Shown here in pieces: positions 1-32,341 of a stretch of 32,341 nucleotides of DNA. Both the position numbers and the translations under genes were made by a program. Each line of letters starts with the position of its first letter. Positions within the stretch are counted from its first letter, which is position 1. Under the pieces are notes generated by a model. The model was not told the DNA's origin. It made no database searches and worked only from the letters and a program-made list of their open reading frames with translations. This DNA is from a virus. The stretch lies in the IMG/VR virus record IMGVR_UViG_3300018481_000054, positions 1-32,341 of that record. One strand, written 5' to 3'.

Positions 1-53
1 CGCGCCAAATGGCCCCCCCTCGTGTGGAATTGGGAGCATTAGTTGCCCGGATG

Positions 54-62
54 TGCTATACT
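54..62 (+). promoter_or_regulatory. Extended -10 promoter for a leaderless terL transcript
   Basis: TGC-TATACT is a good extended -10 element. Only seven bases separate TATACT from the ATG at 70, so transcription would begin at or next to the start codon. No convincing -35 is present; the best position reads GAGCAT. The same geometry occurs at the gene starting at 25011. It is a single short motif, so confidence is moderate. Confidence 0.45.
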
Positions 63-69
63 GATCCCC

Positions 70-1917
70 ATGGCAGATCCCAACCACGTGTGGACTCGCC
101 CATGGAGGCGACTGCAGAACCAGGTCCTCGCCGATGCCCGCCTCGCGGACTCGCCCTGCTACAGATGCGGTGGTCCCATCGACTACTCGCTCCCCGGCAA
201 TGTGCCGACCGGCCCCACAGTCGACCACCTAGAGCCGATGATCCAGGGGGGCGAGCAGATCGTCGACCCCAGCCTCCTAGCCGTTTCGCACATGAGTTGC
301 AACTCGCGCCATGGAGCCCTGGTCGGCAACCTGGCACGAGGCCGACAACTCCATGAAGGCCCCCATCTCGAGGTCAGCCAGCTCCCAATGTGGGACCCCT
401 CTCAGTACGAGGGAGATGGTGGGATATTCGTGGCGGTTGGTGGGGAAATGCCGCCAGTGTGGTCCAGTTGCGAGTGGATTTCCGCCCTTGCTGAGGAGCT
501 AAATAACTTCGCAACGTGGCCCCGTCTCATGTCGCACCCGCACCCTCGCGCGGTCGGTACATATGGCCCAGCCATCGTGGCGATCATGGAAGACAGGCGC
601 AGGAACGACCCCCTCACCCCCGAGCGAGCAAAGACCCTCAGGTGGTGGCAGAAGCTCGTAATATACCGAATGTATGAGCACGATCAGGCCGGCGAGCTGG
701 TTTGGCGGAAGGTGCTGGTGTCCACGTCCCGGCAGGTCGGCAAGTCCGTGTGCCTGCGGGAGATAGCCCTACACCGGATGGCCGACCACCAGCGGTACGG
801 AGAGCCGCAGTTGGTGCTGCACGTAGCCAAGGATCTGGGCATCGCCGACGAGATCCAGCGCCCCGCCCGCCAGTGGGCGAACATGGTGGGAACCCCCTGG
901 CATGGAGTTGGAGGCAACGGTCGCTGGGCGGTGGAATTCCAGGGCGTCCTCGGCCGCTGGATCGTGCGCAGCCAGCAGGCAGTCTACGGCTACTCAGCTT
1001 CCCTGGCCCTGATCGACGAGGCGTGGGATATTGACCCCGAGCACATCTCCGAGGGCATCGAACCCACCATGGTGGAGCGGGAGCAGTCGCAGATGCTGAT
1101 GGTCTCGACAGCCCACCGCGAGGCTACCCCCCTCTACCCAGACCTTCGTATGCCCGCCATCGACAACCTCACCAACCCCAGCGATGACGTGCTCCTCATC
1201 GAGTGGTCGGCTCCACCCAACGCTGATGAAGCCCACATCGCCGCCCACCGGATGGCGAGCCCGTACTGGGATCACCGGCGAGCCCACTTCATCAACTCCA
1301 AGGTGGGCCAGGAGGGGTTCCGCGAGCAGTGGCTCAACATCTGGCCCGACATGGGTGGCAACAAGGTCTTGTTCGCCCCACGTGAGCTCATCATGGCAGC
1401 CATCAACCCCGGCCTCAAGGTCACCGCAGGTACGGAGTCCCGCACCTTCGCCATCTACCCCGCCGCAGACCAGACTCAATGGCATACAGTTGTAGCGGGT
1501 ATCAGTGGCGATGAAATCCTCATCCAATACGTGGACTCTTTCCCCACGGCGAAGGCTGCGATCGCACACGTAGCGCAGGAGGCTAGAACCGGGGTGCCGT
1601 CAGACCTCGTAATCCCAAGGGTCCTCAGGGGGCGGATTCCCAGGCTCGCCGGCGTCCGCACCATCGTTCAGGCCTCCGAGTCGGACATCGCAGCAGCCAC
1701 CACCATCATTCGTCCGTTGCTTCTCGTGGGTAGGGTGCGGCATGATGGGCATGAGGTATTGGCGGACCACATGGCGAGGTCTGCCCTGGAAGTCCATGGC
1801 GACACCTTGAGGATTTCTTCCAAGGAGAGCGAAGGCAACGTGGAGGCAGCGAAGGCGGCAGTTCTCGCCGGCTGGTGGGCGTCCCGCCTTGACCGACCGA
1901 GCGCCGTCGTCGTATGA
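70..1917 (+). CDS. terL: Terminase large subunit with N-terminal HNH nuclease domain
   Basis: This is the ATP-driven DNA packaging motor, which docks on the portal and cuts the genome. From the ATG at 70 it has 615 residues. An HNH-type domain comes first: C30-x2-C33, D52-H53, then H74, C77-N78 and H81-G. The ATPase follows, with Walker A TSRQVGKS (219-226), Walker B LALIDEA (312-318) and coupling motif STA (346-348). The C-terminal part aligns by eye with the RNase H-like nuclease. However, the usual first acidic residue is Y463 (FAIYPAAD), the second falls at I515/P516 and the third at N590 (GNVEAA), so this nuclease looks inactive. A TTG at 43 has a GGGAG upstream, but an extended -10 (57-62) lies just before the ATG at 70, so I prefer a leaderless start there. 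No small terminase is seen in the window. The ATPase assignment is firm; nuclease loss is inference. Confidence 0.93.
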   Translation: MADPNHVWTRPWRRLQNQVLADARLADSPCYRCGGPIDYSLPGNVPTGPTVDHLEPMIQGGEQIVDPSLLAVSHMSCNSRHGALVGNLARGRQLHEGPHLEVSQLPMWDPSQYEGDGGIFVAVGGEMPPVWSSCEWISALAEELNNFATWPRLMSHPHPRAVGTYGPAIVAIMEDRRRNDPLTPERAKTLRWWQKLVIYRMYEHDQAGELVWRKVLVSTSRQVGKSVCLREIALHRMADHQRYGEPQLVLHVAKDLGIADEIQRPARQWANMVGTPWHGVGGNGRWAVEFQGVLGRWIVRSQQAVYGYSASLALIDEAWDIDPEHISEGIEPTMVEREQSQMLMVSTAHREATPLYPDLRMPAIDNLTNPSDDVLLIEWSAPPNADEAHIAAHRMASPYWDHRRAHFINSKVGQEGFREQWLNIWPDMGGNKVLFAPRELIMAAINPGLKVTAGTESRTFAIYPAADQTQWHTVVAGISGDEILIQYVDSFPTAKAAIAHVAQEARTGVPSDLVIPRVLRGRIPRLAGVRTIVQASESDIAAATTIIRPLLLVGRVRHDGHEVLADHMARSALEVHGDTLRISSKESEGNVEAAKAAVLAGWWASRLDRPSAVVV

Positions 1918-14243: not shown

Positions 14244-14599
14244 TGCCTGGTCGCTACGATCTCAATCTGTATCGGGGTGACTCCTACACCTGGCGATTCA
14301 TCCTGTGGGATGACGATGCCCAGACCGTTCCCACCGACTTGACTGGGGCAACAGTCAAGGCTGAAATCCGGGAGAAGTCAGCCGGCACTCACGTGGTGAT
14401 ACTGACGCCGATAATCACACAGCCCAACATCATCGACATCTCGATGACCCCGGCGATGTATGTCGACTGCCCAGTCAAGGGAGTGTGGGACTTCCAGATC
14501 ACCTACCCTGATGGCAAGGTGCATTCCCCCATCTATGGTGACGTGGTGGTGACTGGGGACGTTACAGATTCGGTGGTCATGCCGGTAGCGCGCCGATGA
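14243..14599 (+). CDS. BppU-like N-terminal adaptor, baseplate/fibre protein
   Basis: A 118-residue protein. The ATG at 14243 overlaps the peptidase stop (TGATG), so an in-frame upstream start is not needed. The sequence has the two-sheet pattern of BppU-type adaptor domains: [20 protein letters not shown], then [14 protein letters not shown], then a strand pair ending [20 protein letters not shown]. In related phages such domains anchor receptor-binding proteins to the tail tip. It overlaps the collagen-like gene by four bases and probably forms its base. Confidence 0.55.
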
Positions 14600-16947
14600 C
14601 TACAGTCGTCGTTGAGCCGGGCGAGGGCGAGCCGGTTGTCGTAGTTGACCATGACCCTGTCCAGGTAATCAACATTCAGTACGACCAGGGTGTCGAGGTC
14701 GTCGCGGTGCAGATGGGTGACCTTGGTCCTAAGGTGATCGATGTCACAACAGAGCAGGACATCGAGGTCATCGCGGTGTTCACGGGACAGCAGGGAGCGA
14801 CAGGGCCGCAGGGTCCACAGGGGGAAACAGGCCCGCCAGGGCCAACCGGAGCTGACTCCACAGTCCCAGGCCCGACTGGTCCACCGGGGGCGACCGGCCC
14901 ATCGGGGCCAATCGGCCCTGAGGGAGCACCTGGAGCTGCGTCCACAGTTCCAGGCCCTCAGGGTCCGCAAGGTACGATCGGCCCAACAGGAGCCGCTGGC
15001 CCGCAGGGAGTACCCGGTGCTGACTCCACCGTTCCTGGGCCAGTAGGTCCAACAGGTGCCACAGGGTCGCAAGGTCCTGCTGGCGAGGATGGGGCACCCG
15101 GACCTCCAGGTGCTGACTCTACGGTTCCAGGCCCAGTGGGACCGCAGGGTATCGAGGGGCCGACTGGCCCACAGGGAGACACGGGGCCAACAGGTGCAAC
15201 AGGTTCGCAAGGTCTCACGGGTGCGACGGGTGCGACGGGTCCCGAGGGACCACAGGGTATTCAAGGAACTCCAGGAGCGACGGGGCCAGCCGGTGCGGAC
15301 TCCACAGTCCCCGGCCCGACAGGTCCACAAGGTGCGGCAGGTCCCGAAGGACCACAGGGAATTCAGGGCACCCCGGGAGCGACGGGTGCGACAGGCCCAG
15401 CAGGAGCTGACTCAATTGTCCCCGGTCCAGCGGGACCGCAGGGTGCGACAGGAGCGACAGGAGCTGCAGGGCCACAGGGGATTCAGGGCACGCCTGGAGC
15501 GACTGGCCCGACAGGTCCGGCAGGCGCTGACTCCACAGTTCCTGGCCCGACTGGCCCGCAGGGTATTCAAGGTAATCCTGGTGCGACGGGTGCAGCAGGG
15601 CCGAAGGGTGATACTGGTGCTACGGGTGCGGCCTCTACGGTTCCTGGCCCAGCAGGTCCAGCAGGTGCTCAGGGAGTCAAGGGCGATACAGGACTCACAG
15701 GGGCGACCGGGCCAGCAGGACCAACAGGGGCGACAGGGGCAGCTTCCACAGTCCCAGGGCCGACTGGCCCTCAGGGTGTCAAGGGTGACACAGGCGCGAC
15801 AGGTGCAACAGGGTCGCAAGGTGTACAGGGACCGAAGGGCGACACTGGAGCTACTGGTACAGCAGGTCCAACAGGAGCCACTGGCAGCCAGGGTCCACAG
15901 GGGATCCCAGGCACTACGGGTGCTCAGGGGCCTCAAGGCCCAGCAGGAACGACAGGGGCGCAGGGCATCCAGGGAGTCAAGGGCGACCCCGGTACCCGGA
16001 ACCGCCTGATCAACGGCAACTTCTCGATCATCCAGCGCAGCGGAACGGATGTAACGGTCAGCGGACAGTTCTGTCACGATAGGTGGTACTTCAATTTCAC
16101 CGGGACTGGTGGGACCAGGGTGTACGGGAACAGAACCAACGACGCTCAGTCGCTACCCGAGGGGGCGAAGCAGTTCGCGGGTATCGGGCAGGCAGGCATC
16201 ACAGACCCCACGACGAGCACGACCCTGGGGCAGAAGATTGAGGGTGCTCGGAGTCTGTCGGGCAAGCAGGTCACAGTGTCGTTCTGGGCGCGATGCGATG
16301 TGCTCCCAACGAAGATCGGGGTGCAGTTGGTGCGGAACTTCGGCACCGGGGGCACCACTAGCCCGACCGAGTTCTATGATATCGGGATCGTCACTCTGGG
16401 CGCTGGTGGGGGGCAAGGCCCGTTCCAACGGTACTCCGTAACGGGGGCGCTTCCTGTCTGGGCTGGGCAGAGTGAGGGGACAAACAAAGACAGTCGGATC
16501 ACACTGTTGCTCTACACGTCATGTGGGGCGAACGCTACCTCGGTTGGTGGGATGGGAGTCATCGGTATTCAGAACCGGAACATCCACATCTGGGGCGTCC
16601 AGGTGGAGGCGGGTTCGGTCGCCACTGAGTTTGAGTTCCGCCTGCCCAGCGAGGAATTGGCCGCCTGCCGCAGATACTACCAGTACTACCAACTTCTTGC
16701 TGGTGAGATAGATTCCGCTTCGGGCGGCAACTACGTGTACTTGAACCCCCCAGACGTGGCTACCTTGCGAACAAAGGCTTATACGGCGTCCATATCGGGC
16801 ATCAACCAGGTGAACACTGGTGGCAGTGTCGCAGTCAACCCTGGTGTGTACGTAGAGGCGGAGATGATTTACGTCGTTTTGAACCCGGTGGGGACCCCCG
16901 GCGCATGGTGCCGAGTGTTCGACACTATACTGAACGCCGAACTCTAG
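14596..16947 (+). CDS. Collagen-like tail fibre with C-terminal adhesin domain
   Basis: A 783-residue fibre. Residues 1-64 are a beta-rich attachment region. About 67-467 are Gly-X-Y triplets rich in GATGPQG, GPAG and KGDTG. The triplet run is broken nine times by S-T/I-V-P at residues 88, 116, 144, 175, 236, 273, 313, 347 and 384. From 468 on there is a beta domain shared with the protein at 11570-12688. The collagen part should form a rigid trimeric rod presenting the adhesin. Repetitive DNA here (about 14790-15990) invites length change by recombination. Confidence 0.85.
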
Positions 16948-16955
16948 GAGGAAGC

Positions 16956-17030
16956 ATGACCTTCCGTGACGTGATCCTCATCCTGCTCGTCATCGCAGTG
17001 GTGTTCCTGCTAGTCCTTGCTTTTGACTAG
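16956..17030 (+). CDS. 24-residue single-span membrane peptide
   Basis: MTFRDVILILLVIAVVFLLV then LAFD: almost entirely one transmembrane helix with a short charged start. The ATG is preceded by CTAGGAGGAAGC, nearly identical to the strong site before the gene at 12697, which argues that it is really translated. It closes the plus-strand run. Its last 21 bases overlap the 3' end of the convergent primase gene. Possible roles are a lysis accessory peptide or an exclusion peptide; none is proven. Confidence 0.6.
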   Translation: MTFRDVILILLVIAVVFLLVLAFD

Positions 17031-19034
17031 ACCATCCAGGGTGTCGTGCCCCTTCAGTCGCCACTCGGTGATGGAGGGGAACCCGTCCGTACGCCGGTGC
17101 TGAACCCCGAGTCGCTTCCGCGCACTGTGCACCGCCCCCTTCTTGATCCCCATCTCGAGCGCGTGCTCCATCACCAATGAGCTGGCCACCCAGCCGCCCT
17201 TCCCGGGGTCGCCCTGCTCTTGCAGGAACCTGCTGAGGAAGTCCACCGCGTCGTTGGCGTCCATGAGCGCTTCGCCATCGGTGTTGCTAGCCTGCATGGC
17301 CTCGCGCATGGTGCCATTGAAGTCGGCCCCCCACTTAACCTTCGCCGTGGGGAGCTTGTTCCCCTCGCTATCCAGCACGGTGGCCGCTGTGATGGTGAAC
17401 TCGTGACGTGGGAGAGTATCGCTCGGGCCGAGATTGTTCTTCACTGTGCCGAAGATCCGGTGCGTGTGATCCAGGGGGTGGTGGATCACCGCATGCACCG
17501 ACCTCGCCACCGCAGTAAACGCCTTGCTCGCCATGACTGAGTTGAGGATGTCGTCCCCGCCTGACTTGTTGAAGTGCATGATGCCGAGGGCAGCAGCGTC
17601 GGTGGCCCCCAGCATCTTGGTCATAGGCTCGAGCGCCCTGCGTACCTCACCATCACGGTGGCTGTCCAGGCTGGCGGTCAAGCGGCTGATGAGAGGGTCG
17701 AAGAAGATGAAGGACACATCCTCTTGTCGTATCAGCGCCTCGGTCTTGTTGACATCACGGGGCAGCATCAGCTCCTCGATGTGGGTGTCGCCCTCCATGT
17801 CAACGCTGACAGCTTCCACATGCAGGACCAGGTCGAGGTTGGCATTGTTCGCCATCAGCCGGGGCACCACGACGTGCTCCCAGGAGTCCTCGGTAGCGAT
17901 GATGATGACCGACTTCGGGGTGCCGTAGTCGGCTCCCAGCAGGGTGCCACGAGTGATGGCTGCTGAGGCCCAATAGCCGATACTTGACTTGCCTGTTCCC
18001 TCCTTACCAGCGAGGATGCCTAGTGTTCCCTTGGCTAGTCTACCTTCCCACAGCCAGGTGGCTGCGCTCGGTTGGATAGTGCTCGCTCTGATCACCTTCA
18101 ATCCACTTGACTCGGGGGCTTTGACCTTTGGCTTCTCAGCCTTCGGCCCTATCAGCCCGTCTGTCCACGACCCCCCCGTCAATTCCCCTATGGATAGGGG
18201 TCTATTGGTGGGCAGGTCCATCGAGGAGGAGAACACGTAGACCTCCCCCTCGCCGGTGTACCCGATGGTCCCGCTGACACCCTCGCGTTTCCCCTCCCTG
18301 GTGAAGAGCACGTAGGGTTCGTCACCTCCGCCGGTGTCCAGCATCACATGGTGGACGTGGTACTGCTCTACCATCACATCGATAGCGTCTACAGTGAGCA
18401 GTGGGAGGTTGACCCGGTCACTCTCCTTCAGCGCTCGGCGGATCCCGCTAGCTCGGCCGGCGACCCCGTCCACCACCGACTGGAGCATGTCCACGAACTT
18501 CGCCGGCAGGACCTCGGGTGGATCCCAGGGGTCGCGGTCATCCCATGACCCCCACGGGGTGACGACTCCCGGGGCGACCACCCACCCCGAGTCTGCCCGG
18601 ACGTCGATAAGGTTCGCCCACTGGAGCGGCACTCTGTTGCCGAACATCTTCCCCGTTGGCTTGCGGAGGTAGCGGTGTTCCCCTCCACTGGCGGTGTCCA
18701 CACACCAGCCGGGGGGCAGACCGATGGAGTCAGCGAAGCCCACCCCGTCGAACCCGTGCCTGTCACAGTCGAAGACGATGTACCCCGCCGACCCGGGGAC
18801 CAGCCCCACGCCGAGCACTTCACCATCTCTGTTGTTGATGGCGCGGAACCAGCTCTCGATCTGCTCGGGGTCGGTGGAGCCATCCAGGTGGCCGCGCCCC
18901 CCATTCAGGGGGCGCTTGTTCGTGAGCCCTTTCCTGTCATCCCAAGAGATCCCAACGGGGAAGACCTTGAAGCCTCGAGAGGCCCAGAGCAGGGCGAGGT
19001 TGCGCGCGGTTTCTAGCTCCAGCGCGGTAGCCAC
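17010..19034 (-). CDS. Primase-polymerase / RepA-type helicase fusion
   Basis: A 674-residue replication protein with two domains. Residues about 1-190 are an AEP-type Prim-Pol. The metal-binding pair is D89/D91 in IVFDCDRHG, H120 lies in SGGEHRYLR, and D144 in LIDVRADSGWVVAPG. Residues about 325-540 are a RecA-fold ATPase of the RepA/AAA_25 type, with Walker A GKEGTGKS (343-350), TED (381-383) and Walker B FIFFD (442-446). A C-terminal helical region may be a winged helix. It should prime and unwind phage DNA. The GTG start has a weak ribosome-binding site but follows a small ORF stop by one base. There is no phage DNA polymerase in the window. Confidence 0.87.
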   Translation of the reverse strand: MATALELETARNLALLWASRGFKVFPVGISWDDRKGLTNKRPLNGGRGHLDGSTDPEQIESWFRAINNRDGEVLGVGLVPGSAGYIVFDCDRHGFDGVGFADSIGLPPGWCVDTASGGEHRYLRKPTGKMFGNRVPLQWANLIDVRADSGWVVAPGVVTPWGSWDDRDPWDPPEVLPAKFVDMLQSVVDGVAGRASGIRRALKESDRVNLPLLTVDAIDVMVEQYHVHHVMLDTGGGDEPYVLFTREGKREGVSGTIGYTGEGEVYVFSSSMDLPTNRPLSIGELTGGSWTDGLIGPKAEKPKVKAPESSGLKVIRASTIQPSAATWLWEGRLAKGTLGILAGKEGTGKSSIGYWASAAITRGTLLGADYGTPKSVIIIATEDSWEHVVVPRLMANNANLDLVLHVEAVSVDMEGDTHIEELMLPRDVNKTEALIRQEDVSFIFFDPLISRLTASLDSHRDGEVRRALEPMTKMLGATDAAALGIMHFNKSGGDDILNSVMASKAFTAVARSVHAVIHHPLDHTHRIFGTVKNNLGPSDTLPRHEFTITAATVLDSEGNKLPTAKVKWGADFNGTMREAMQASNTDGEALMDANDAVDFLSRFLQEQGDPGKGGWVASSLVMEHALEMGIKKGAVHSARKRLGVQHRRTDGFPSITEWRLKGHDTLDGLVKSKD

Positions 19035-32096: not shown

Positions 32097-32103
32097 TAAA
32101 AAA

Positions 32104-32132
32104 ATCTTACGCCACCGCGCCCCAAAAAGCAA
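32104..32132 (-). promoter_or_regulatory. Promoter of the right-hand leftward operon
   Basis: On the minus strand, TTGCTT (32132-32127), a 17-base spacer and TAAGAT (32109-32104), followed by a T run and the structured leader. It is the third site with the same -35 and spacing. Confidence 0.65.
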
Positions 32133-32159
32133 ACCCGGTGATCGTGGCGTGCATTACGA

Positions 32160-32330
32160 CAAGGAATGGAACAATGGGGCGCGAAACAATGGGAATAAAC
32201 AATAGGGAATGGGGGGACAAACAATGGGAATAAACAATGCGGAATGGGGGGAGGGAGGAAGAAATGGAAATAAAAACAAATCGAAACAAAAGGAAACAAA
32301 TGGAAACAAAAGAGGGATTTATACGAAAAC
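32160..32330 (+). repeat. Purine-rich right end with direct repeats
   Basis: No gene. The plus strand is nearly all A and G. A 34-base unit beginning AAACAATGGGAATAAACAAT occurs at 32184-32217 and 32219-32252 (period 35, two differences). Then GAAACAAA recurs three times with a 10-base period (32283-32312). Together with the adjacent terminase at the left edge, it may mark the genome end or packaging region. Confidence 0.55.
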
Positions 32331-32341
32331 AATCCGGCGGC

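Follow-up and report, generated by a model that had tools for sequence, protein, structure and literature searches.

A fusion of an HNH nuclease to the large terminase subunit (TerL) marks one large phage family, known here from metagenomes only. The larger result concerns its genome ends (cos): in most of the family they fall within the terminase gene, between the HNH domain and the ATPase, so that the two nuclease-bearing parts are cut from each other. The analysis started from a viral record of 32,341 bases, referred to below as the window. A preliminary description had been made from its sequence alone, in which the in-gene cos of the relatives could not be visible.

The HNH-TerL fusion and its relatives

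The first gene of the window (positions 70-1917; all features are on the plus strand unless stated) is a single open reading frame of 615 amino acids, with an ATG at 70 and an in-frame TTG at 43. Portal, protease and capsid genes were found downstream. The preliminary description had read this frame as an HNH domain joined to a terminase ATPase, and the family searches agreed. The protein matched the TerL family phrog_9 (E = 2.6e-26) and two HNH families, phrog_338 (E = 1.2e-10) and a second one (7e-6). With Pfam alone, every domain of the window protein scored under the cut-off; PF01844 reached just 12.2 bits on the HNH domain, the cut-off being 21.4. No small terminase gene was detected in the usual spot before TerL (window 1-70 and 1918-2062) or in the other parts searched. 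Elsewhere, the window encodes a 783-amino acid protein with collagen-like repeats (14596-16947; PF01391, E = 5e-50) and a primase-polymerase and AAA helicase protein (17010-19034, minus strand; PF09250 and PF13481).

The HNH nuclease domain (73-336) was detected with an HNH alignment of the family (E = 1.9e-21), and this was the sole match of that alignment in the whole window record. The motifs named in the preliminary description were located as C30-x2-C33, D52-H53, H74-x2-C77-N78 and H81-G82. The CxxC...HxxC zinc ligands and the DH...CN core (D52-H53 and N78) are present, and C30, C33, H53, C77 and N78 are invariant columns across 18 HNH domains of the family. The middle Asn of the H-N-H motif is absent from the window protein, which has L69 at the column where clade B (see below) has Asn. 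This Asn is absent from clade A, the window included. In a phage HNH enzyme, the Asn mutant retains partial activity (PMC5304195).

The HNH domain is followed by a linker (337-519), and residues 87-119 were predicted to be disordered from the pLDDT values. In the packaging ATPase domain (556-1359), the Walker A (721-744, S218..RQVGK225) and Walker B (1015-1020, D316-E317) motifs are intact, as had been described. R221, G224, K225, D316 and E317 are invariant in the 62 alignment rows, and the domain has the Walker A and B motifs of an HK97-type TerL. The RNase H-like nuclease domain (1381-1890), in which the catalytic triad is incomplete, was assigned from the fold of the model, with Z of about 12-14 to TerL nuclease domains.

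The AF2 model of the window protein was built with an alignment of 62 rows (the window and 61 relatives) and gave a mean pLDDT of 86.5 and a pTM of 0.67; the model from the single sequence was unusable (pLDDT 32). The best PDB match of the model was HK97 TerL (6z6d; Foldseek E = 1e-17). VIA-align gave a Z of 25.1 across 414 residues for this pair, and the sequence profile match to 6z6d had an E-value of 2.1e-23. In the AF2 model and by the structure matches, the C-terminal domain has the RNase H-like fold of an HK97-type TerL.

Relatives were collected from viral contigs, using as the query an alignment that included distant terminases. When the window protein alone was used against the viral contigs, no matches were obtained. 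The nuclease domain alone matched no phage record, and the cultured phage records gave distant ATPase matches only. The relatives fell into two clades: clade A, with 30-46% identity over the best segment, and clade B, with about 25%. The HNH domain and the ATPase were in one frame in 79 of the 84 contigs spanning the junction. As for the remaining five, three break at or near the cos point and look misassembled, L027 has a divergent HNH domain that the pattern missed, and L028 is truly without HNH. The three contigs in which TerL was joined to unrelated sequence near this site were treated as chimeras. In the tree, the fused proteins formed one clade apart from eight TerLs with separate HNH genes (support 96/92), and the window stood alone at the base of clade A. 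In the open-licence literature, no HNH-TerL fusion and no cos inside a terminase gene was described.

The TerL of L028 (257-1771) is 39% identical to the window in the ATPase and carries a different nuclease domain. We regard it as a domain swap, which could be a natural control for the HNH-TerL fusion.

Catalytic residues of the RNase H-like domain

The catalytic centre of HK97 TerL consists of D302, D388 and D471 (PMC9410871), in the contexts Y-A-G-L-D302, M-A-F-D388 and G-R-I-D471. In the window protein, the alignment places Y463 (TAC, 1456-1458) at D302 (site 1). P516 (1615-1617) takes the place of D388 (site 2); the sequence alignments have a gap there, and this position was read from the end of the predicted strand (511-516) and from the family columns. 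At site 3, G-R-I-D471 of HK97 aligns with G-N-V-E592, and E592 (1843-1845) is the equivalent of D471. N590 (1837-1839), the third catalytic position according to the preliminary description, was ruled out by this alignment, as it lies two residues before E592. Thus, of the proposed loss of the triad, the absence of acids at Y463 and at I515/P516 (now P516) held, but the third site retains its acid. A canonical TerL nuclease has three acids, and one of these is left in the window protein. It is a TerL by its fold and ATPase, but not a canonical nuclease by its active site.

The same sites were compared across the relatives. Site 1 is D or E in 77/77, and the window alone is without this acid. 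At site 2, the relatives have G, T, S, P or V, and an acid was found in 0/77. Site 3 is D, H or E in 19/19 members of clade A; in clade B it is E in 41/58, and E or T overall. Clade B also has a D or E located four residues beyond site 2. Beside Y463, P464 has changed as well, this position being Asp in 18/19 of the clade A relatives. Therefore, Y463 is not likely to be a lone base error. Judged by these residues, the RNase H-like site is weakened across the family, and most strongly in the window protein.

Eroded sites are not restricted to fused proteins. The TerLs of the Omega-type mycobacteriophages WXIN and Zelink, which are related to the window protein in the ATPase, have Tyr in place of the site-1 acid and a non-acidic state at site 2, in a distant alignment in which single residues are uncertain. 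These phages differ in having no fusion and genomes of 110-115 kb, and in Zelink an HNH gene is annotated upstream of TerL. They are examples from the phages with a separate HNH gene, in which this distant alignment shows eroded TerL sites. Because erosion occurs where HNH is a separate gene, the fusion did not cause the erosion of the triad. Furthermore, because the fused relatives keep D or E at site 1 (77/77), the fusion preceded the full loss, which is confined to the window. The preliminary description had tied the fusion to the loss of the original active site, and had named homologues with the same substitutions and without a fused HNH domain as evidence against this. By this alignment, WXIN and Zelink are such homologues, and we dropped a clean link between fusion and triad loss. 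What stands is the absence of acids at sites 1 and 2 in a fused protein; fusion and loss were not one event, and E592 is kept. As a separate observation, gene 10 of Zelink (L009:3367-5727) encodes a TerL with an intein-like insert of ~350 amino acids in Walker A (SRQNGKG...HNS), and the TerL of WXIN is without the insert.

The retention of E592 bears on which domain cuts the DNA. The HNH domain might only help, by nicking one strand or unlocking the motor, while the RNase H-like domain still cuts with E592 and substitute ligands. HK97, which has an intact TerL triad and a required HNH protein, is a precedent for the need of both (PMC9410871). The acids at site 1 of all 77 relatives, the mostly acidic or His residues at their site 3 and the D/E of clade B four residues past site 2 point in the same direction. 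To judge from the acids kept at sites 1 and 3, the domain may still cut in these relatives. In the window, however, the acids of sites 1 and 2 are both absent, and no substitute acid is visible next to Y463. The site-1 acid is normally common to both metal ions. We consider a cutting RNase H-like domain with a helping HNH domain unlikely.

Genome ends within the terminase gene

Among the first 80 contigs, the frame was cut by the left contig end in 46. These cuts were concentrated in the linker between HNH and ATPase, 42/46 falling 46-116 amino acids before W193 of the ATPase. In the control, a related family with separate HNH, 1/80 contigs ended inside TerL. We set the prediction that the HNH half would be found at the opposite end before testing it on the long records. 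In nine of the 11 cut records of at least 13.9 kb, the HNH half was less than 0.5 kb from the opposite end. In seven of these nine (records of 14-22 kb), the two halves of one protein were at the two ends, in a single copy each. Two long records, G008 and G036, had no HNH at the other end, and these are read as incomplete.

The contigs that span the junction contain a DNA element at this site. It consists of a tract of 5-8 T, about 16-22 nt, CCCCGACCCCA or a close variant and, ~10 nt further, TATCCC. The position of the cut is given by this T-tract/CCCCGACCCC element with a precision of a few bases. The pattern T5+...CCCCG was detected in 13/18 spanning linkers, compared with 0.23 expected from dinucleotide shuffles, and in 43/60 linkers of a wider set. 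Starts of the T tract are spread over the three codon phases (11, 15 and 17 cases), and CCCCG is mostly in one phase. Since the T tract occurs in all phases, the element is conserved as DNA and not only as peptide. When left ends were mapped on spanning relatives, 13/20 were at 6-7 nt past CCCCG (six share one reference contig). Right ends stop 18-25 nt past the T tract, and left ends begin 29-30 nt past it. This leaves about 10 nt that neither end contains, which would be expected from trimming of 3′ overhangs during library making. Contig ends are an indirect indication of virion ends; in the relatives with an in-gene cos, they define genome ends at one site.

Several observations were made around this site. 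At its right end, the public contig L093 (record G037) finishes with AGATCGGAAGAG, which looks like an Illumina adapter, as at the end of a molecule. This is also the point at which L090 and L033/L056 appear to be chimeric. In clade B linkers such as those of L075, L277 and L284, repeated AACCAGCC and GAACTGGCG units are present 3′ of the cos element, and these repeats are candidate terminase binding sites.

The same element was found in cultured phages. Of the cultured actinophages checked, ten have an HNH gene no more than about 350 nt from the right genome end and TerL near the left end. The genome of KylieMac ends in TTTTTTAAATAATGGCGGCTCTGGACACCCCGCGCCACC and that of Rhysand in CACCGACACCCCGCCCCA, which is the element of the fused family's cos. 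Ten cluster AN phages have 11-base 3′ overhangs (PMC5513430 Table 1); KylieMac belongs to the same genus and is itself absent from that table. The Arthrobacter phages of cluster AN (KylieMac, Decurrovirus) and the Microbacterium phage Rhysand (Orlajensenviridae) share with the fused family the cos element and HNH coding sequence adjoining cos at the right end. However, their HNH and TerL are separate genes on either side of cos, and no frame runs through it.

Breaks in the linker could also come from strain variation, repeats or assembly limits rather than from virion ends, since viral contigs are often fragments and some are chimeric here (L033, L056/L232). Such causes hardly account for ends that share one position at the nucleotide level, next to a conserved element, in phages of about 25-45% identity, nor for gene halves at opposite ends of 14-22 kb records. 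They also leave the low count of the control family (1/80) and the use of the same element as the genome end of cultured phages without a reason. This explanation is very unlikely.

The position of the HNH sequence likewise bears on its role. HNH domains are common in mobile elements, and that of the fused protein might be a homing endonuclease or another insertion captured by TerL, with no part in packaging. Against this, the fused proteins form a single clade (96/92), the frame is kept in 79/84 contigs and the domain is always beside cos. In the cultured phages, moreover, it is stand-alone HNH genes that adjoin cos at the genome end. A captured insertion seems even less probable than assembly breaks.

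Phage HK97 (TerL gp2, separate HNH protein gp74) is alike in the TerL fold, in cos packaging with 3′ overhangs and in an HNH gene next to the packaging functions (PMC9410871). It differs in its separate HNH protein, its intact D302/D388/D471, its 12-nt overhangs and a cos that lies outside the genes. In the headful phages SPP1 and P22, pac is within terS, the genomes are terminally redundant and the gene is left unsplit. The packaging signal is thus inside a terminase gene in these phages also, whereas in the fused family it is the large-subunit gene that is cut, at cos, and every virion has this gene in two pieces.

A probable one-chain cos terminase and the putative ends of the window

These results are probably best explained by a cos terminase in one chain, in which an HK97-type TerL motor has an HNH nickase fused at the N terminus; in other actinophages, the nickase would be the separate gene beside cos. 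The ATPase would translocate the DNA. The HNH domain would most likely make staggered nicks at cos, giving 3′ overhangs of about 10-11 nt. The RNase H-like domain appears weakened in the family, and in the window, where sites 1 and 2 have no acid, it is probably inactive. For most of the family, every packaging cut at the linker cos would sever the terminase gene. The left end of the virion genome would then encode ATPase and nuclease and the right end HNH, and joining of the ends after injection would restore the frame.

HNH coding sequence borders the genome end, on one side or the other, in every arrangement seen. Because HNH always borders cos and the other nuclease of the window is without its central acid, we infer that the HNH domain does the cos cutting. 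The absence of the middle Asn in clade A, the retention of E592 and the use of both proteins by HK97 argue against certainty on this point.

The splitting of the gene may be merely tolerated, or it may tie terminase synthesis to circularisation. A stronger version, in which the cut is a switch tying terminase expression to circularisation and cos is cut by HNH alone because the RNase H-like domain has become vestigial, is tentative and we hold it to be rather doubtful. If such a switch operates, an injected genome makes no intact terminase before its ends join.

A cos inside the terminase gene would mean that these phages cut an essential gene whenever they package DNA and restore it in each infection. 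HNH proteins have long been suspected to act as the cos-cutting partners of HK97-type terminases, and this division of labour would be tied to one polypeptide, in which each of the two nucleases can be tested by point mutation. The in-gene cos explains the frequent contig ends inside TerL in this group, where gene callers would call the terminase truncated or missing.

For the branch of the window, the cut site appears to be just upstream of the intact gene. No T tract of five or more is present anywhere on the plus strand of the window, and a cos in its linker was rejected for this reason. In L016-L018, the neighbours of the window, 40-60 nt separate the element from the start codon downstream. 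A C run follows 12-15 nt after the left end in L014, L015 and the window, as predicted. A putative left genome end of the window was therefore placed at 1-19, which reads CGCGCCAAATGG followed by C7; its spacing to the C run is that found at the left end of L014 and of L015 and at the predicted left ends of L016-L018. The putative right end is at 32318-32341, where TTT is followed by 21 nt to the end of the record; the relatives have 18-25 nt after the T tract, and the likeness is weak, with three T only. At both ends, the window agrees with its relatives in spacing only. From these positions, the window appears to represent a whole or almost whole linear genome, with a putative cos shortly upstream of the gene, which is unsplit.

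The right end of the window (32100-32341) is purine-rich and non-coding and contains near repeats of AACAATGGGAATAAACAATG, which are possibly part of the packaging region.
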